The notes below the pieces were generated by a model. It saw only the letters and a program-made list of their open reading frames with translations. It did no database searches and was not told the origin of the DNA. Shown piece after piece: positions 6,409-62,816 of a DNA stretch of 64,000 nt (position 1 is the first letter of the stretch; each line of letters starts with the position of its first letter). A program made the translations under genes and the position numbers. This stretch comes from Polyangium jinanense (GTDB taxonomy: Bacteria > Myxococcota > Polyangia > Polyangiales > Polyangiaceae), in NCBI RefSeq assembly GCF_028435365.1, contig NZ_JAGTJJ010000056.1, forward strand, positions 1 to 64,000, written 5' to 3'.

Positions 6409-7308
6409 GCGAGGAGCGCCCTGAGGTACAGGACGATGCATCCGAGGTGGACGAAGCCGAGGAAGTTCTCGGCGTAGCGCTCGTACCGTACCACCATGCG
6501 GCGGAAGCTTTGGAGCCAGGCGAAGAGGCGCTCTACCTTCCAGCGGCGCTTGTATCGGCGGAGGGGGCGGAGGTCTTGGGTAAGGCGCTTGCGATTCGAG
6601 CGATTGGGCGCGCGATCAGCTCGATCCCCCGCTCCTGCGCGAGCCGCGCGTCGAGCGCGTCGCTGTCGTAGGCCTTGTCGCCGATGAGGCGCTTGGGGAG
6701 CTGGGCGAGGAAGCAGTTATCGAGGGTTCGCTCAACGAGCGTGACTTCATGCGGCGAAGCACTTTCGATGCAGACGGCGAGAGGAAGACCAGAGCCGTCT
6801 GCAATGGCCATGATCTTGGTCCCCTTGCCACGCTTCGTTTTCCCGACGCAGCGCCCCCCTTTTTGGCGCTCACGAACGTGCCGTCGATGAACGCCTCGCT
6901 CAAGTCGATCTGCCCTCGGTCACGTAAGTCCCCGGCCAAGGCGTAGAGGATCCGTTCGAGCGTGCCGTCCTTCGACCACTGCTGGAACCCCCGATGACAC
7001 GTCTGGTAGGGCGGATATCTCTCGGGCAAGTCGGCCCATCGGGCGCCGGTGCGCAAGATCCACAAAATGCCGTTGAGCACCTCGCGCGCATCCTTCCACG
7101 GCCTGCCACGGCGATCGGCGCGCACGCGCGGAGCTGGGATAAGCGGCTCGAGGAGCGCCCACTGAGGGTCTGTCAGGTCCATACCCGCATATGTCGCCAG
7201 CACCAAAAATGTACCGACCGCTGGAGCGAGGTTCGTTCGATTGATCCTACAAAGTAGGAGGTTGGCGCTGATAGACCTACTGGACGGTTTGTGAGATGAG
7301 TTCTAGTG
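6384..7308 (-). mobile_element. IS5-type insertion sequence, copy 2 (complete)
   Basis: About 925 bp, identical to copy 1 wherever they overlap and in the same orientation. Terminal inverted repeats are cactcgaactcatctcataa at the left and, on the other strand, cactagaactcatctcacaa at the right, differing at two positions. No clear target duplication flanks it. The left neighbour (6007 gene) and the right neighbour (lipoprotein ending at 7303) are both truncated at its ends. This suggests that recombination or deletion between IS copies shaped the locus. Confidence 0.85.
6393..7182 (-). pseudogene. IS5/IS427-type transposase, two-frame with extra frameshift (copy 2)
   Basis: Identical to the transposase of copy 1 but complete. 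ATG 7182 begins [13 protein letters not shown]. The A5G6 run near 6850-6860 is the probable -1 frameshift site, followed by the frame with [13 protein letters not shown] and [20 protein letters not shown] two-base excess near 6596-6606 again breaks the frame before [12 protein letters not shown]. The last frame ends at a TGA inside the left terminal repeat. Because both copies carry the same lesion, the copy event either came after it using transposase supplied in trans, or the two copies were homogenised. Confidence 0.8.
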
Positions 7309-14137: not shown

Positions 14138-15040
14138 GTGCATCCGTATCCGCTGCCCCCCCTGTCCCGCGCCTTCTGCGGGCGCCTCGCGCCCTCGCTT
14201 ACGGCAAGGCTCGGCGACGTCGACGCGCTGGAGCTCCGCTTGCAATCGCTGCTCGAGGAGGCGCGGCGCGCCTTTCCCGCCGTCACGGTGGACGAGGCGG
14301 CGTTCGTCGGCCATCTCGCGGAGCGCATCGCGGGCGAGGACGACCTCGAAGAGGCGCTCTCCAGCGTGCTCGCCGCCGATCTGCTGCTGGCCTTCGCGTG
14401 CCTTGCGGGCGACGCCACTGCGCTGCGGGAGCTCGGCCGGCGCATCGACGTCGAGGTCCATGCCGCGCTGCGGGGGATGGCAGCCGCATCCGAGCTCGTC
14501 GAGGAGGTGCGATCGGTGCTCGGCCAGAGGCTGCTCGTGGGCGACGGGGGGTCGCCGAAGCTCGCGACGTACGCCGGGCTCGGGCCGCTCCCGGCCTGGA
14601 TCCGCGTGGCCGCCCTGCGGACGGGGATCAGCTTGCGCAGGCGCGGTCGGCGCGAGGTGCGCGCGGACGAGCGTGCGCTCCTCGCGGCCATGGATCCGAG
14701 GCTGGATCCCGAGTCGAGGCTCTCGCGCGAGCGCCACACGGAGGAGCTGCGCGAGGCCCTGCGCGAGGCCATGTCGGCGCTCTCGAGCCGCGACCGCAAC
14801 CTCTTGCGCATGTACTACGCGGAGGGGATCAAGCTCGACAGGCTGGCGATCATGCACCGCGTGAACGCCTCGACGGTATCCCGCTGGATCGCGCGGGCGC
14901 GTGAGGAGGTGCTCGAGCGTACGCGCGGCGGGCTCAGCGCCCGCCTGAAGCTCTCCGCCTCGCAGGTCGAGAGCCTGCTTGGCCTGGCCCAGTCGCTGGA
15001 CGTGAGCCTGGAGAGTTTGCTCGGGAGATCGGCCGGCTGA
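14138..15040 (+). CDS. myxobacterial sigma-70-like factor
   Basis: A 300-residue sigma factor-like protein. The C-terminal part has the classic region 4: SALSSRDRNLLRMYYAEG (4.1), then LAIMHRVNASTVSRWIARAREEVL (HTH 4.2). The long N-terminal half is not a standard ECF region 2 and matches the layout of the myxobacteria-restricted sigma group I recall as Sig-70_gmx1 (TIGR03001). GTG 14138 is preferred over upstream starts, which would run through the divergent kinase gene. It is almost certainly coregulated with the kinase-zinc-finger protein across the 31-base gap. A second member of this family is at 51927-52829. Confidence 0.88.
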   Translation: MHPYPLPPLSRAFCGRLAPSLTARLGDVDALELRLQSLLEEARRAFPAVTVDEAAFVGHLAERIAGEDDLEEALSSVLAADLLLAFACLAGDATALRELGRRIDVEVHAALRGMAAASELVEEVRSVLGQRLLVGDGGSPKLATYAGLGPLPAWIRVAALRTGISLRRRGRREVRADERALLAAMDPRLDPESRLSRERHTEELREALREAMSALSSRDRNLLRMYYAEGIKLDRLAIMHRVNASTVSRWIARAREEVLERTRGGLSARLKLSASQVESLLGLAQSLDVSLESLLGRSAG

Positions 15041-24071: not shown

Positions 24072-24211
24072 CGTCCTCGGGTCTACCACACGGCCCGCAG
24101 CTTGAAGAGCGCCATCGTCATCTCGCCCAAACGGGCTGACAAGCCGAGCGGTCCTTCCCTCGACAAACTCCTCCTTCCCTCCCCGGACAAACGTGGTCTA
24201 CTTTGCGGCGC

Positions 24212-25036
24212 ATGTCCCGTAAAGCTGTTCTTCTCGACCGGGTGGATGCGCAGCTCGTCGACGACGTCGAGCGCGCGGTACGCGCTGCAAAGGCGCTGCC
24301 TTCCACACGCCTTTCGCAGACCAAGCTCACTCCGCACGCCAGCGCGGAGCTCGTGCGACAGCTCGTCGCCCGCGGTCTCGAGCGCAGTCCGAAGACGATA
24401 CGCGTTCCCCTCGCGGCGCAGATCGAGAGCCTCCTCCAGGGTGGCGCGCGCGTTCCGCTCAAGGACGTCGGAAAACGCGTCAAGGGAGGCACGAAGGCCG
24501 AGCTCGACGCCGCCCTCGCCAAGTTCATCCGCGAAGGACACGCGCGCGTCGTCGTACGAACCCAGGTGGAGGTGCTGGTCGGGCCCGCCGAGCGTGCGCT
24601 CGATCCAACCGAGATCGCACACCTCTCGAAGACGGCCGCGCAGGTCAGCAAGACGCTCAAGAAGGTCCAGGCCAAGGGCCTACCACGCTCGATCTTGCAG
24701 GAAGATCTCGCGGCTCTCTTCGCGCCTCTCCAGCCCTCGCTTCGTCTCGCCGCGACGACGCCCGACCAAGCACCATCCACGCTCGTCGACGAGGCCCTGC
24801 GCCGCCTCGAGGATCCGGCGCTCAAGCTCGTGCGCATCCCGGATCTCGTGCGCGCCTTGTCCAGCCGTCTCTCGCTGGACGCCATCCACCGCGCGCTCGC
24901 CGAGGGCGCGAAGGACGGGACGCTGGAGCTGCGGCCGGAGGCTGGTGCCGAGTTCCTGAAGCCCGAGGACGTCCCACTCTGCCCGCCTGGTCCCCGTGGC
25001 ACCGTCCTCTCCTACGCGAGGCGTGTTTCACCGTGA
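24212..25036 (+). CDS. basic tandem winged-helix-like protein, first gene of nuclease-FtsK operon
   Basis: A 274-residue Lys/Arg-rich cytoplasmic protein, not recognised as a named family. Two stretches look like winged helices: one around KGGTKAELDAALAKFIREG (residues ~90-110) and one near the C-terminus (VRIPDLVRALSSRLSLDAIH, ~205-225, followed by ALAEGAKDGTLELRPEA). Both show the helix-helix-strand pattern L-x3-G-x1-2-x-L. Its stop overlaps the ATG of the ATPase gene by one base (TGATG), so the two are cotranslated. The likely role is DNA binding or an adaptor for the ATPase and translocase; this is inference from context. Confidence 0.8.
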   Translation: MSRKAVLLDRVDAQLVDDVERAVRAAKALPSTRLSQTKLTPHASAELVRQLVARGLERSPKTIRVPLAAQIESLLQGGARVPLKDVGKRVKGGTKAELDAALAKFIREGHARVVVRTQVEVLVGPAERALDPTEIAHLSKTAAQVSKTLKKVQAKGLPRSILQEDLAALFAPLQPSLRLAATTPDQAPSTLVDEALRRLEDPALKLVRIPDLVRALSSRLSLDAIHRALAEGAKDGTLELRPEAGAEFLKPEDVPLCPPGPRGTVLSYARRVSP

Positions 25037-27075
25037 TGGAGAACCCGTTCCAGGCCATCCACGCGGATGCATGGGATCCCGCTCCCATCGACGTCTCCTC
25101 GATCAACGAGCGCGCGAGCTCCCTCGTTCGCGCGCACATCGAACAGCTCCGAGACGCCGGGGCTCGCGAGGGAACGGCCGCCCGCTCGACGTCGATCCTG
25201 CTGCTCGGCCCTGCCGGCATCGGCAAGACGCACCTGTTCACGCGGCTGCGAAAGCAGGTGGGTCCACGCGCCGTCTTCGTGCACACGCGGCCCGAGGTCG
25301 GCGTCGATCCGTCGCCCCGCCACGTGCTCTCTGCGACGCTGCGCTCGCTCAGGCAGCCGGTGATCCAGCAGCAACACCGGCAGATCGACGTGATCGTGGG
25401 GGCCATGCTGGCGACGCTCCAAGGGGGTCGTCCACGCTTCCCCTTGTCCTTCATCGACGACTGCTCGAGGCAGCCGCCCGACACGCAGCGCGAGATCCTC
25501 TCGCATGCCGTCGCGCAAACAGAGGATCGTTTCCCTGACACGTCGGCGCGGTATCTCGAACACCTCCTCGCCCTGCCCTTCGCGGACCGCATGCGCCAGC
25601 GGGCTCTCTTTGCGTGGCTCTCGGGTGACGAACCGAGCCAGTCGCAGCTCGACATGATCGGCGAGCGCGCTGCCCTGCGCGAGGACGACCTCATCCTCGC
25701 GCTGCGCACGCTCGGCGTGGTGGCGGCGTTCGGCGCGCCCATCGTGCTCGTGTTCGATCAGCTCGAGAACCTCGCGGAAGAGGAGGGCAAGACAGGCCGG
25801 ATCATCCGGCACGCCCGCCTCGTGAGCGAGCTGCGCGACACGGTGCGCGGGCTCGTGATCGTGCAGATGGCGCTCGACGCGGTCTGGATGCAGCGCATCC
25901 ATCCGGTGCTCCACGCCAGCATGCGGGATCGGCTCGAGGAGAAGATCGAGCACCTCGCGCTCCCGACCCCCGAGCAGCGGCGAGAGCTCATCGAACGCTG
26001 GAGGAGCGCGCTGCCCGAGGAGGAGAAAAGCAAGCCGTTTCCGTATCCATTCTCGACGAGACAAGTCGATGCATGGCTCGCCGCGCCGGGAATGACGCCG
26101 CGCATGCTGATGCAAAGCTGCGGTGAGGCGTATCTGCGTCGAACCCTGCCCGAAGCAGAGGAGGCAGAGCCCGTCGACACCTCGCCGGACGAACGCCTCG
26201 CCGTGGCCTGGCAGGAGCACCTCGGGCGAGCGCGCAAGCGCATCGACGAGGCCGCGGCGCAGGCCCAAGGCGTGGCAGCCGAGAGCATCCGCGCGGGGCT
26301 TCTCGCGGCGCTCACGGTCGCGCAGGTGAAGGCCGAGACGGGGGAGACGGAGGGGGCTCCTGCGCTGCGCATTCGCATGGCCGACGGTGGCTGCGAAATG
26401 CTTTTCGTGCAGCAAGCACACCATACCTCCCTCGCCCGGGTCCTGCGCGCAGCGATCGCGCTCGCGGACGAGCGCAAGGTTTTGCTGTTGCGCGAGCAAG
26501 CGTTCGCGATCCCGCCGACCTGGAAAGAGGTTCACAAGCTTCTCGCCGCGTTCACGGGGAAGGCTTATGCTTCGTTCTTGCCCATCGAACGCGAGGCCCT
26601 GGCACGGCTCCTCGCAGTCGAGCGCCTGCTCGGCGCGGCCCGTTCGCAGGATCTGAGCGACGACGCCGGCAAGATCATTCCGTACGACACGGTCATGGAT
26701 TGGGCCCGGCGCACGCTCGGCTGCAATGCATGGGGGCCGGTGGAAGCCCTGTTTGGAACAACAACAGCCCCCGTCTCCGTGCCTTCCGCGCCTCGGCCGC
26801 CCGAGCCACCGCCGACTCCTGCCGACCCGAATGCCGCCCCTCCCCGCCCGCGCGAAGAAGAAGCATCCCCTCGCGCGACAACAAAAACCCCTGCGGACGG
26901 TCCGGTGCTTCGAGAGCTGCGCAAACTCCGGGTTGCCTCGATTGATCGCCTCGTGCGAGAGGTGCGCGCGTGTGATCCCATGGCCACGCGGGCAAGCATC
27001 ATGGAGGAGCTCGCCAAGCTGCCGATCAAGCGCTTCGGCGGCGCGATCATCGCGCTGGAGGAGCCATGGCGCTGA
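25036..27075 (+). CDS. AAA/STAND-like ATPase, second gene of nuclease-FtsK operon
   Basis: A 679-residue P-loop ATPase. Walker A is GPAGIGKTHLF (~residues 58-68); Walker B is IVLVFDQLENL (~236-246), with Asp followed by Gln rather than Glu. The next region (RHARLVSELRDTVRGLVIVQMALD) fits an ORC/Cdc6- or STAND-type ATPase. A Pro-rich hinge (~575-615) leads to a C-terminal helical segment that may be another winged helix (VLRELRKLRVASIDRLVREV). It overlaps the neighbours on both sides (1 and 10 bases), so all three genes are one operon with likely fixed stoichiometry. Possible role: sensing or loading ATPase for the nuclease-translocase. No close named system was recognised. Confidence 0.85.
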   Translation: MENPFQAIHADAWDPAPIDVSSINERASSLVRAHIEQLRDAGAREGTAARSTSILLLGPAGIGKTHLFTRLRKQVGPRAVFVHTRPEVGVDPSPRHVLSATLRSLRQPVIQQQHRQIDVIVGAMLATLQGGRPRFPLSFIDDCSRQPPDTQREILSHAVAQTEDRFPDTSARYLEHLLALPFADRMRQRALFAWLSGDEPSQSQLDMIGERAALREDDLILALRTLGVVAAFGAPIVLVFDQLENLAEEEGKTGRIIRHARLVSELRDTVRGLVIVQMALDAVWMQRIHPVLHASMRDRLEEKIEHLALPTPEQRRELIERWRSALPEEEKSKPFPYPFSTRQVDAWLAAPGMTPRMLMQSCGEAYLRRTLPEAEEAEPVDTSPDERLAVAWQEHLGRARKRIDEAAAQAQGVAAESIRAGLLAALTVAQVKAETGETEGAPALRIRMADGGCEMLFVQQAHHTSLARVLRAAIALADERKVLLLREQAFAIPPTWKEVHKLLAAFTGKAYASFLPIEREALARLLAVERLLGAARSQDLSDDAGKIIPYDTVMDWARRTLGCNAWGPVEALFGTTTAPVSVPSAPRPPEPPPTPADPNAAPPRPREEEASPRATTKTPADGPVLRELRKLRVASIDRLVREVRACDPMATRASIMEELAKLPIKRFGGAIIALEEPWR

Positions 27076-29120
27076 GCCCCCAGCCGCTCCCTCTGTTGAC
27101 GCTTGGGGACGACGCCCGGACGAGCCGGGCTCTGCCGCCAAACCCCCGCCGCGGCGCCCGCGAGCTCTCCGTCACCGAGATCCGCAACGCCCTTCGTTGC
27201 CCGCGCGTCTTCGCGCTCGGGCGCGCGCGCGGTCAGGCCGTCGCTTTCCCGATCGGTGCATCGTCCCTCGGCGCGCTCTTCCACCGCATCGCCGAGCGTT
27301 TCGCGCGTGAGCTCGAGGCGCCTCCCGAACCCGTGCGCGCGCTCCTTCCGCATGCGCCGCGCGAGCGCGTGGCAGATGGCCTCTCGGCCTGGCTCCTCAG
27401 TCACCTCGTGGACGAGCTCGAAGCGAACCCCAGCGCAGCGAGCATGCCCGGCGAGATCGACGATCTGGCCGAGGCGCTGCGGGAGTTCGCGCGCTACCTG
27501 GCGAAACAAATCGAAGGGACGGGGCACCGGCCGGCAGAGGCATTGCGCTCGTTCCTTCAGCACGCCGAGCTCGCGGTCGACGCCGTGCTCGATGCGTCCG
27601 GCGGGGTGCCGGTGCGTGTCTCGGGCCGGATCGATGCTCTGTATTGCAGGGCGAAAGGCGCAGTCGATATCGTCGAATACAAGCTCACGGACGAGGCCAA
27701 CCAGGAGCTCGACCAGGCACAGGTGGCGCTCTATCGTTACCTCTTGCGCTCCGCGCTCGATCTCGACGCGGAGCCGCTCATCCTGCGCTTCAAACCGGGG
27801 CTCATCGAGACGAAGCTCTCGGCGGTGGCTGCCGATGGCATCGTGGAGCGGACCCTCTTGCCCCTGCTCGGCAGGATGGTGAGCTGGTCGGAGCGCCCCG
27901 AAACGGCGCCGGCGACCTCGCGCCGGGATCTCTGCCCAACGTGCCCCGTACGACCGGCGTGTGTCGAGACATACATAGATGCGCTCGAACCTCGTGATCA
28001 ACCGCCTGCGGGCGCAGCTCGCCCCATGCCTGATCCGGCTGGACGGCTCACCTTGTCCCCTCCGCGCGAGCCCATAGGTGCTCTGCCGGACGACACCGAG
28101 GGCATGGCGGAGGCCGAGTCCCTCGCCGCGCAGATCGTGGCGCAGCTGAAACGACAAGGGGTCATTGCGAGCCTTGGCCGCAAGACAGTTGGACCGCGGC
28201 TCCTGCGTATCGAGGTCACGAGCCCGCGACAGCGTGTGGCGCAGCTCGATCGCGCAGCGCAGGACGTGGAGCATCACCTCGCCGGGTACAACGTGCGGTT
28301 CGAGCGGGAGGAGGCGCGGCGATATTTCACGGCGCCGCGGAGGGTGCCGCGCAAGGTCGACCTCGAAACATTGCTCGCGCGCAAAGCCGCATTCTTGCGG
28401 GAGCGGCCGGGGCGTTTCGTGCTCGGGGAGGGGCTCGATGGCGAGGTAATCGCCGGGGACCTCGCCGACGGAAGCTCGTGCCACCTGCTCGTGGCCGGCC
28501 AGACGGGGAGCGGCAAATCGGTTTTCTTGCGTGCCCTCGTCGTCGGGCTTTGTCACTTTCATCCGCCGGCGGCCATACGGTTCACGCTGGTGGATCCCAA
28601 GCGCGTGACGTTCGGCGGGCTCACCGCGGGGATCGGCGCCCACCTGGCAGGGCCGATCGTGCACGACGTGGAGGCGCTTCTCGCGGAGCTCGACGCGCTC
28701 GTGGCCGAAATGGAGGAGCGATACACGCTCTTCGAGCACCGGAAGGTGCAGAGCATCGACGACTACAATGATACCGCGCCTGCACCGCTGCCGCGGCGGG
28801 TGGTCGTGGTGGACGAATTTCAGGACTTGATTGCGTCGAGGGCAACGCGGCAGCCATTCCTGGATGCGGTGAAGCGGCTCGGGTCGATGGCTCGCGCAGC
28901 CGGGATTCACCTCGTACTGGCGACGCAGCGGCCCGACCGCACGACGGTGCCTGGAGAGATCAAGGCGAACCTGGGCGGGAGAATCGCGCTGCGGGTGCAG
29001 GAGCTCGTCAATTCGAGGATCATTCTGGACCAGGGAGGGGCCGAGGAGCTTCTGGGGAAGGGCGACTTCTACGCCGATCTCGGGCATGGGCTCGTGCGGG
29101 GACAAGCGCCAATGGCGTGA
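27066..29120 (+). CDS. Cas4/AddB-like Fe-S PD-(D/E)XK nuclease fused to FtsK/HerA-type DNA translocase
   Basis: A 684-residue fusion. The N-terminal nuclease has the RecB-family set: C45 (RNALRCPRVF), H73 (GALFHRI), D190 (GRIDAL), E204-x-K206 (VEYKL), then C290-x2-C293-x5-C299. The four Cys should hold a 4Fe-4S cluster as in Cas4, AddB and Dna2, and all catalytic residues are present. The C-terminal half is FtsK/SpoIIIE-like: Walker A AGQTGSGKS (~477-485), Walker B VVVVDEFQD (~578-586), then LVLATQRPD and RIALRVQELVNSRIILDQGGAEELLGKGDF. There are no membrane helices and no gamma domain. One protein can thus pump and cut DNA. It overlaps the ATPase gene by 10 bases. There is no CRISPR array or AddA nearby. 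Confidence 0.92.
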   Translation: MALSPQPLPLLTLGDDARTSRALPPNPRRGARELSVTEIRNALRCPRVFALGRARGQAVAFPIGASSLGALFHRIAERFARELEAPPEPVRALLPHAPRERVADGLSAWLLSHLVDELEANPSAASMPGEIDDLAEALREFARYLAKQIEGTGHRPAEALRSFLQHAELAVDAVLDASGGVPVRVSGRIDALYCRAKGAVDIVEYKLTDEANQELDQAQVALYRYLLRSALDLDAEPLILRFKPGLIETKLSAVAADGIVERTLLPLLGRMVSWSERPETAPATSRRDLCPTCPVRPACVETYIDALEPRDQPPAGAARPMPDPAGRLTLSPPREPIGALPDDTEGMAEAESLAAQIVAQLKRQGVIASLGRKTVGPRLLRIEVTSPRQRVAQLDRAAQDVEHHLAGYNVRFEREEARRYFTAPRRVPRKVDLETLLARKAAFLRERPGRFVLGEGLDGEVIAGDLADGSSCHLLVAGQTGSGKSVFLRALVVGLCHFHPPAAIRFTLVDPKRVTFGGLTAGIGAHLAGPIVHDVEALLAELDALVAEMEERYTLFEHRKVQSIDDYNDTAPAPLPRRVVVVDEFQDLIASRATRQPFLDAVKRLGSMARAAGIHLVLATQRPDRTTVPGEIKANLGGRIALRVQELVNSRIILDQGGAEELLGKGDFYADLGHGLVRGQAPMA

Positions 29121-29179
29121 GGGCGTTTTCGGAACATGCGCTGCACACGGGGCAACTCCGCTATGCCCCGTGTGTAGAG

Positions 29180-60070: not shown

Positions 60071-60736
60071 ATGGCAGTCCGCAAAGTAGAACGATACGGG
60101 GAAACCCGTCTGTCAAGAGCTTCGCGGAGCTCGTCGCCGAGTGCCGCGAGACCTTCATGGTGGCCGAGCTGAAGGTCACGAGTCGAAGGGGCTACGAGTC
60201 GGTCCTCCGGAACACCTTGCTCCCGAGTTCGGCGAGCTCCCCCTGGACAAGGTCGATGGGAAGGCCGCTGCGGATCTGGACCTCGACCTGTCCCGGCAGA
60301 AATTGACCCGCTCGACGCGCAACAACACGCAGATCGTCCTCCGGCCGGTGCTCCGATTCGCCAAGAGCCGCGGATACGTGGAGGATCGGCCGGTGAACCT
60401 GCCGAAGCTCGAGCCCATCGGGCAGAGCATCCTCGAGATCCCCTCGGACGATCAGGTCCCATCGTGAGGAAGGGACCGCGGGAGGCGCACGTCGCTCTGA
60501 ACGACCACGGCAAGCCGTGGGGCCAGTTCGGGATCGATCAGGCGTTCGAGCGCGTCTGCCGTCGGGCGGGCCTAAACGGGTGGTCGGTGTACTGTCTCCG
60601 ACACCACGCGTTCACCTCGTGGCTCCGCGTAGGCATCCCTGTCCACGTTGTCCAGCGGATGGCAGGTCACAAGCACCTGGCGACCACCCAGAGGTACGTG
60701 CACTTCATCCACAGTGAGGCCACGGCGAGGCCATGA
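60071..60736 (+). pseudogene. tyrosine recombinase (phage-type integrase), decayed copy 1
   Basis: Fragments of an integrase in at least three frames. The N-terminal SAM-like part is SFAELVAECRETFMVAELKV; the core-binding end is LTRSTRNNTQIVLRPVLRFA followed by KSRGYVEDRPVNLP. The catalytic C-terminus (frame opening at 60464) contains VCRRAGLNGWSVYCLRH and GHKHLATTQRYVHF. Box II lacks the His of HxLR (YCLR here) and keeps Arg; the final His and Tyr remain. The DNA between the second and third parts seems deleted. Its last ~260 bases recur at 62541-62790. Confidence 0.75.
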
Positions 60737-60856
60737 GGAGGCTGGGCAGTTTGCCCAAAAGATCGATGCTGGGGGTCACACAATTCTATTTGTGCCGCAC
60801 GTTCCGCAGCCTCGCTCGCACGCTCCCGATGGTGGCGACCATAAGAAACCCTACAT

Positions 60857-62534: not shown

Positions 62535-62816
62535 GTGAAGAAGGGACCGCGGGAGGCGCACGTCGCCCTGAACGACCACGGCAAGCCGTGGGGCCAGTTC
62601 GGGATCGACCAAGCGTTCGAGCACGTCTGCCGTCGGGCGGGCCTAAGCGGGTGGTCGGTGTACTGTATCCGACACGACGCGATCACCTCGTGGCTCTGCG
62701 CTTGCAGCCCTGTCCACGTTGTCCAGCGGATGGCAGGTCACAAGCACCTGGCGACCACCCAGAAGTACGTGCACTTCCCTGGCAGTCTGACGGGCGCTCA
62801 ACCTCGCGGTGTGTAA
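62535..62816 (+). pseudogene. tyrosine recombinase C-terminal fragment, copy 2
   Basis: Reads KKGPREAHVALNDHGKPWGQ, FGIDQAFEHVCRRAGLSGWS, VYCIRHDAITSWL and GHKHLATTQKYVHF, nearly the same as copy 1 over about 260 bases. Only the catalytic C-terminal end is present; the N-terminus and core are absent. It is a direct repeat of the copy at 60472-60735, bracketing the ECF41/AhpD pair. Confidence 0.75.

Follow-up and report, generated by a model that had tools for sequence, protein, structure and literature searches.

A three-gene unit of Polyangium jinanense with a predicted Fe-S nuclease–FtsK fusion as a candidate variant of the Orc/Cdc6-coupled capture systems

Positions 1 to 64,000 of contig NZ_JAGTJJ010000056.1 of Polyangium jinanense (hereafter the window, 64,000 nucleotides) contain three overlapping open reading frames (ORFs), genes 1 to 3, which encode a winged-helix protein, an AAA+ ATPase and a nuclease joined to an FtsK motor. 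What such a set does, and whether it belongs to a known system, is the question raised by this locus. Judged from its sequence, the unit is a conserved, accessory three-gene machine. The best explanation, to which we give a probability of roughly 0.6, is that the three subunits form a nuclease which translocates DNA at the expense of ATP and acts against invading DNA, and that the unit is a variant of predicted capture systems.

The stop codon of gene 1 (TGA, 25034-25036) shares one base with the start codon of gene 2 (ATG, 25036-25038), and genes 2 and 3 overlap by 10 bases (27066-27075). The original prediction had described one unit with overlaps of 1 and 10 bases, and both overlaps were found, with the three ORFs as located there. 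Its domain calls, a basic winged-helix protein, an ORC-like ATPase and a fusion of an iron-sulfur (Fe-S) nuclease to a soluble FtsK, were borne out as well (Table 1). None of the three proteins exceeded the family cut-offs of NCBIfam.

Table 1. Features of the three-gene unit in the window (gene 2 residue numbers count from 25033; REase, restriction endonuclease; aa, amino acids)
Feature	Position	Strand	Remark
Three-gene unit	24212-29120	+	overlapping ORFs, one strand
Gene 1, basic multi-winged-helix protein, 274 aa	24212..25036	+	proposed DNA-contacting subunit
Gene 1 winged helix, residues 65-127	24404-24592	+
Gene 1 winged helix, residues about 187-272	24770-25027	+
Gene 2, Orc/Cdc6/TnsC-type AAA+ ATPase	25036..27075	+	GTG start at 25033 possible
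Gene 2 AAA+ module, residues about 26-370	25108..26142	+
Gene 2 REase-like middle domain, residues 416-537	26278..26643	+	helix/strand order in model; without conserved D..ExK
Gene 2 C-terminal winged-helix-like domain, residues 624-675	26902..27057	+	secondary structure of model
Gene 3, Fe-S PD-(D/E)XK nuclease + FtsK alpha-like domain + FtsK motor, 684 aa	27066..29120	+
Gene 3 nuclease domain, residues 33-299	27162..27962	+	Pfam PDDEXK_1 3.1e-22
Gene 3 FtsK alpha-like domain, residues 346-413	28101..28304	+	PF17854 E 0.02, below cut-off
Gene 3 FtsK motor, residues 442-684, Walker A 478-485	28389..29117	+	PF01580 7.5e-35

Gene 3 encodes a predicted active REase-fold nuclease, in which the Fe-S and catalytic residues are complete (C45, H73, D190, E204-x-K206, Q219-x3-Y223, C290, C293 and C299). 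Four cysteines and an H-D-ExK-QxxxY core are the pattern of the Fe-S RecB/Cas4/AddB nucleases. Gene 3 shares this pattern with AddB and Cas4, and differs from them in its fusion to FtsK and in that no cas gene or superfamily 1 (SF1) helicase is among the three genes; Cas4 models match it weakly in the Pfam, PADLOC and NCBIfam scans. A residue alignment of 38 rows included 36 of the Fe-S type (the window, 23 database proteins and 12 loci); the rows are not fully independent, since a database protein and a locus gene may in some cases be one and the same. The complete motif set is present in 35 of these 36 rows and the single exception is a D190E change, so the residues singled out earlier (C45, H73, D190, E204-x-K206 and C290/C293/C299) are conserved. 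The other two rows, L047:7567-12293 and L048:8273-13755, represent a distant variant of the unit, found in G006 and G037, which keeps H, D, E, K, Q and Y and lacks the four cysteines.

The motor of gene 3 has both Walker A and Walker B, and is matched by FtsK_SpoIIIE at 7.5e-35 against 0.0096 for DUF87 in Pfam. The solved chains closest by sequence are FtsK translocases (1.2e-38), and 562 proteins match gene 3 at E up to 1e-20, the best 120 of which are listed. The FtsK alpha domain (PF17854) scores above the cut-off, at 4.2e-8, in a cyanobacterial plasmid relative (L233). Membrane, gamma and NurA domains are absent from the 19 Pfam matches of gene 3, and the frame stops after the motor. The identity of a chromosome-segregation or housekeeping FtsK was ruled out by the domains, the distribution and the tree.

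Gene 2 is an AAA+ ATPase of the Orc/Cdc6 clade. The best structural matches of its predicted structure, which has a mean confidence (pLDDT) of 88.4, are Cdc6, TnsC and ORC. Pfam AAA_16 is sub-threshold, a sequence search of solved chains gave nothing convincing for this protein, and whole-chain Foldseek matches of both predicted models were weak. The middle domain is perhaps an inactive nuclease fold, as suggested by the order of its modelled secondary structure rather than by a fold match; hhalign gave no match between it and the nuclease core of gene 3. Gene 1 encodes a basic protein with at least two winged helices, for which Pfam showed nothing above cut-off; it shares 99% identity with a P. 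jinanense database protein.

With a threshold of 1e-60, a match to gene 3 is present in 15 of 108 Polyangiaceae genomes and in nine of the 61 of good quality; among the 15 are a deleted copy in G005 and one in G111 that is divided between two contigs. Because of this patchy distribution the unit is not housekeeping, and the single-copy housekeeping spread that the original prediction had set against its own reading was not the pattern found. In an even sample of the phylum, which was scored for up to three candidates per genome, with misses possible, 29 of 377 genomes passed 1e-35 and 11 of them were of the full type. The other 18 match gene 3 only from residue 282 onward and include two SspH-like genes (L065, L066) and the G006 variant. 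Among 59 relatives, nine had a match at 1e-30, six of them of the full type.

Gene order was read at 22 loci, all found through gene 2 or gene 3, so that the count shows the companions of these genes and not how frequent gene 1 is alone. All three genes were readable at 16 loci, four of them from Polyangium (one with a deletion), and the order was 1-2-3 on one strand in 16 of 16, which is the outcome of the search for this neighbourhood in other genomes that had been proposed; one of the 16, L064, ends at a contig edge inside gene 3. At L047 and L048 a gene of similar size precedes genes 2 and 3, and a 12-sequence search relates it weakly to gene 1 (E 0.18 and 0.0043). Contig ends truncate L090 and L063, and at L051 genes 1 and 2 are present but gene 3 is not. 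At L055:10247-14443, a relative of gene 2 is fused to a HerA-like motor (PADLOC mad8/HerA) and preceded by a 339-aa gene, with no match to gene 3.

In four proteins (P0162, P0180, P0193 and P0203) the ATPase of gene 2 is fused directly with the FtsK motor and the nuclease is missing, which suggests that genes 2 and 3 work jointly. The motor tree placed two of them, P0162 and P0193, together with the window and L058 (99/96), and for this reason the nuclease was probably lost in both; L055 was left out, since its motor did not match the profile. In this tree the 12 rows of the system form one group, apart from the SspH rows, with modest support (66/93). Two apparent fusions were set aside. P0209, a doubtful fusion of genes 1 and 2, is known from one contig, and the stretch before its junction lacks the conserved C-terminal motif of gene 1; as this fits a frameshift, it was not counted. 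The gene 2-gene 3 "fusion" of G005 is a deletion that breaks the frame, from gene 2 residue 422 to gene 3 residue 171 (L054:8004-10813), and it shows that the unit can be lost.

The ratios of nonsynonymous to synonymous substitution rates between the window and three Polyangium relatives were 0.24-0.25 for gene 1, 0.19-0.22 for gene 2 and 0.11-0.15 for gene 3, values that show purifying selection on the unit in Polyangium. Gene 3 evolves slowest, and the genes proposed to contact DNA evolve faster.

A relative of the unit can sit on mobile DNA. Plasmid pPSE7367.01 of the cyanobacterium Pseudanabaena sp. PCC 7367, typed as conjugative, holds the trio in the same order (266, 680 and 688 aa). Its gene 3 presents 30% identity over 96% of the query, with all Fe-S and catalytic residues; profiles in the 12-sequence search matched its gene 2 at 1.7e-26 and its gene 1 weakly (3.1e-6). 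Among 72,556 plasmid records no other covers at least 80% of gene 3 (458 match in part). None of 50,697 phage records reaches this coverage, and on viral contigs the 80 loci retained of 106 match only from residue 273 onward. An SNF2 helicase and a SWIM protein lie divergently upstream of the plasmid trio. SNF2 is also the divergent neighbour at L050 and at L059, where a SWIM-like motif scores below the cut-off (Pfam E 0.0031), which makes three of the 18 Fe-S-type loci with upstream sequence, a set with no matched control (the window, L049, L050, L053, L054, L056-L062, L064, L088, L089, L091, L092 and L233). At the 13 loci of a tblastn neighbour test (15 stretches, 208 kb; seven of the genomes supplied the controls, 1,022 kb in all), SNF2 was present in two, against two of 59 control regions (p 0.15). 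Among further plasmid loci, L234:7389-11355 (cyanobacterial) carries a gene 2-related ATPase that matches an exonuclease at its N-terminus; TIR and macro-domain genes come next, and the group is possibly a separate defence operon. L235:3063-10648 (Rhizobium) carries genes annotated as DndE-family, FtsK and phosphorothioation-associated methyltransferase.

In Polyangium the three genes stay together while their surroundings reshuffle. Homology of the four relatives to the window spans 24130-24359 to 29120-29141, and in G002, G004 and G005 there is no other match in the 15-20 kb around the unit, except for a short integrase-like piece about 250 bp upstream of gene 1 in Polyangium fumosum (G004). 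Gene blocks that adjoin each other in the window are dispersed elsewhere: the FAD/TetR block and the phosphatase gene are on separate contigs or megabases apart in four of the four Polyangium genomes with both, as are the LysR/GST block and the endoglucanase block in four of five. By motif reading, repeated pieces resembling the C-terminal part of a tyrosine integrase are found in the window at 60561-60740 and 62632-62777, and at L057:6928-7035 (= L001:8825-8932); the piece in G004 is one of the copies. The window also has two 92-aa ORFs, at 132-410 and 6533-6811, whose listed first 80 residues are identical and transposase-like by eye; they are apparently copies of one insertion element.

A working scheme can be proposed from these parts. 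The winged-helix protein and the Orc/TnsC-like ATPase, perhaps arranged as a ring, would bind double-stranded DNA, select the target and place the FtsK ring on it. From there the motor would pump duplex DNA into the fused nuclease, which would cut during transit, and the REase-like middle domain of the ATPase would probably be a non-catalytic contact. As none of the three conserved genes encodes a DNA-modification enzyme, recognition may depend on the state of the DNA (ends, intermediates of transfer or of replication, supercoiling) and not on a mark.

Action of such a machine against invading DNA is favoured by an order kept in all the readable loci while most surroundings differ. The ATPase-FtsK fusions, the conserved nuclease residues, the purifying selection, the patchy occurrence, the trio on a plasmid typed as conjugative and the faster change of the genes proposed to contact DNA also speak for it, as do the anti-invader role predicted for the capture class and the motor of this kind in DndFGH. 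Several observations weigh against it. Enrichment in defence islands, proposed earlier as a check, gave no clear signal in a PADLOC scan of 51 neighbours from 10 loci and 49 genes drawn randomly from 710 in control regions (genes above 1,300 aa were dropped from both lists, the test list was supplemented manually with two SNF2 genes, and the first 25 families of each list were compared without statistics). The commonest models, PD-T4-6, which we take to be kinase models, match four of the 51 neighbours and one of the 49 controls, and the control sample includes a type I methyltransferase; the two hand-added SNF2 genes match DpdE/ZorD models. The ordinary neighbours in Polyangium are as scattered as the unit, so a change of flanks is no proof of mobility, and the sharp homology edges were dropped as proof of it. 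In G001 the phosphatase gene, which in the window adjoins the unit, is some 3.6 kb from it, and the phosphatase, LysR/GST and endoglucanase genes are on the contig of the unit, as in the window. Moreover, the four homologues without a nuclease mean that this domain may be exchangeable. Finally, genes for RecBCD, AddAB-like proteins or SbcCD are near the unit in three of the 13 tblastn loci, against one of 59 control regions (p 0.017), and in three of 18 (p 0.038) when L053, L054, L056, L057 and the 20 kb of the window round the unit, none of which matches, are added.

These neighbours are the basis of the main rival, in which the unit would be an accessory processor of double-strand-break ends, an FtsK ring feeding an AddB-like Fe-S nuclease beside, or as a backup to, RecBCD, AddAB and SbcCD. 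In G150, two genes separate the unit from recB and recD (above NCBIfam cut-offs) and a partial recC, which are about 3 kb away. AddAB-like genes (below cut-offs) are about 1 kb upstream in G447, and about 140 bases downstream of gene 3 in G035 there are SbcD (above cut-off) and a gene resembling SbcC (below). The latter arrangement resembles HerA-NurA, a ring translocase with a nuclease comparable to the unit in principle, which cooperates with MRE11/RAD50 according to the available text of PMC4641729. On the other hand, the unit has an FtsK and not a HerA motor, a PDDEXK_1 and not a NurA nuclease, and an Orc-type partner. The neighbour signal is a lead only, because the test loci themselves supplied the queries and the category was picked post hoc, and 15 of the 18 loci are without such genes. 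With the patchy distribution and the relative on a plasmid also against it, we regard end processing as unlikely; of the two roles offered by the original prediction, invader DNA degradation or end processing, the former is the better reading. A WYL-domain regulator downstream of the G150 unit and a short helix-turn-helix gene upstream of it were also observed (L062:8378-9406 and 14364-14636).

It is less probable still that the unit serves a plasmid or an integrated element (transfer, segregation or exclusion of rivals) and was left behind in chromosomes. The trio on a plasmid typed as conjugative, the integrase-like piece of G004 and the transfer and segregation roles given to motors of the HerA/FtsK class in the main text of PMC10853773 agree with this reading, while the scarcity of well-covered plasmid and phage records and the purifying selection in Polyangium do not. 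A diverged DndFGH/SspFGH restriction module dependent on phosphorothioate marks is very improbable. The best PADLOC match of gene 3 is indeed the C-terminus of SspH (6e-59), and the available texts describe SspFGH as a three-gene set in which a Walker ATPase accompanies a motor resembling FtsK (PMC8092258) and DndFGH, with such a motor, as nickase and translocase (PMC11662687), so that the number of genes, a nucleotide-binding ATPase with an FtsK/HerA motor and DNA damage as output are common to these systems and the unit. However, the matched part of the two best SspH models is limited to their last 216-260 positions, and the SspH-like genes of L065, L066 and L236 have 1,674-1,810 aa against 684 in gene 3, besides the modestly supported separate grouping of the motors. 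Genes 1 and 2, searched up to E 1 in PADLOC, match only SngA (0.11) and Avs2 (0.0018), and neither SspF nor SspG. None of the three conserved genes is a modification gene, and the 25 of 69 families listed for the 51 neighbours include none for phosphorothioate modification.

As for meaning, an unlikely extension is that the unit would be a further bacterial machine for degrading DNA ends beside RecBCD, AddAB and AdnAB, in which an FtsK ring replaces the SF1 helicase and feeds an AddB-type Fe-S nuclease, an Orc/TnsC-type ring does the loading and an SNF2 (SWIM) remodeller sometimes takes part; it would serve as a portable backup that acts on foreign DNA if the host's own enzymes for end processing are blocked. 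The trio, in which a soluble FtsK motor carries a complete Fe-S nuclease, is compact enough for cloning and purification. It could reveal whether pumps of the FtsK type deliver DNA to nucleases in immunity and how self and non-self are discriminated without a modification enzyme.

Returning to the reading of a translocating nuclease against invading DNA, named systems were checked against PADLOC-DB 2.0.0 of 2023, and none there has all its genes matched by the trio. The earlier statement that the set is no named system holds to this extent and needs amending, since a near-identical make-up had already been predicted by Kaur et al. 2024 (PMC10853773). As described in its main text, these mobile Orc/Cdc6-coupled HerA/FtsK capture systems comprise an Orc/Cdc6 ATPase, an active and an inactive REase, a HerA/FtsK motor (some with FtsK alpha) and proteins with two to four winged helix-turn-helix (wHTH) domains, and are proposed to intercept invader DNA, which is itself a prediction. 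Literature searches, limited by their wording, found no experimental test of this class, which does not imply that there is none. The BREX-Related Capture systems, a related composite class in the available text of PMC12839542, also combine an Orc/Cdc6 ATPase, HerA/FtsK and a DNA-binding protein; in contrast to them, no PglZ, GNAT or TGT is among the three conserved genes here. Two features depart from the capture systems as described by Kaur and coworkers, the fusion of an Fe-S RecB/Cas4/AddB-like nuclease to the N-terminus of FtsK and the divergent SNF2 helicase that recurs at three of 18 loci; Cas4, RecB and Fe-S do not occur as words in the main text of PMC10853773, whose figures or supplement may show the form. 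The remainder corresponds: an Orc/Cdc6 AAA+ ATPase, a REase-fold nuclease predicted active from its motifs, a motor of the HerA/FtsK kind with an alpha-like domain, varied fusions and occurrence on mobile DNA. Gene 1, with at least two winged helices, is a putative counterpart of the multi-wHTH proteins. In the place of the inactive REase, the model of gene 2 has a putative REase-like insert without D..ExK, at the matching position between the AAA+ module and the C-terminal wHTH. Then, on sequence grounds, we file the unit as a predicted variant of the Orc/Cdc6-coupled capture class, with a Cas4/AddB-like Fe-S nuclease.

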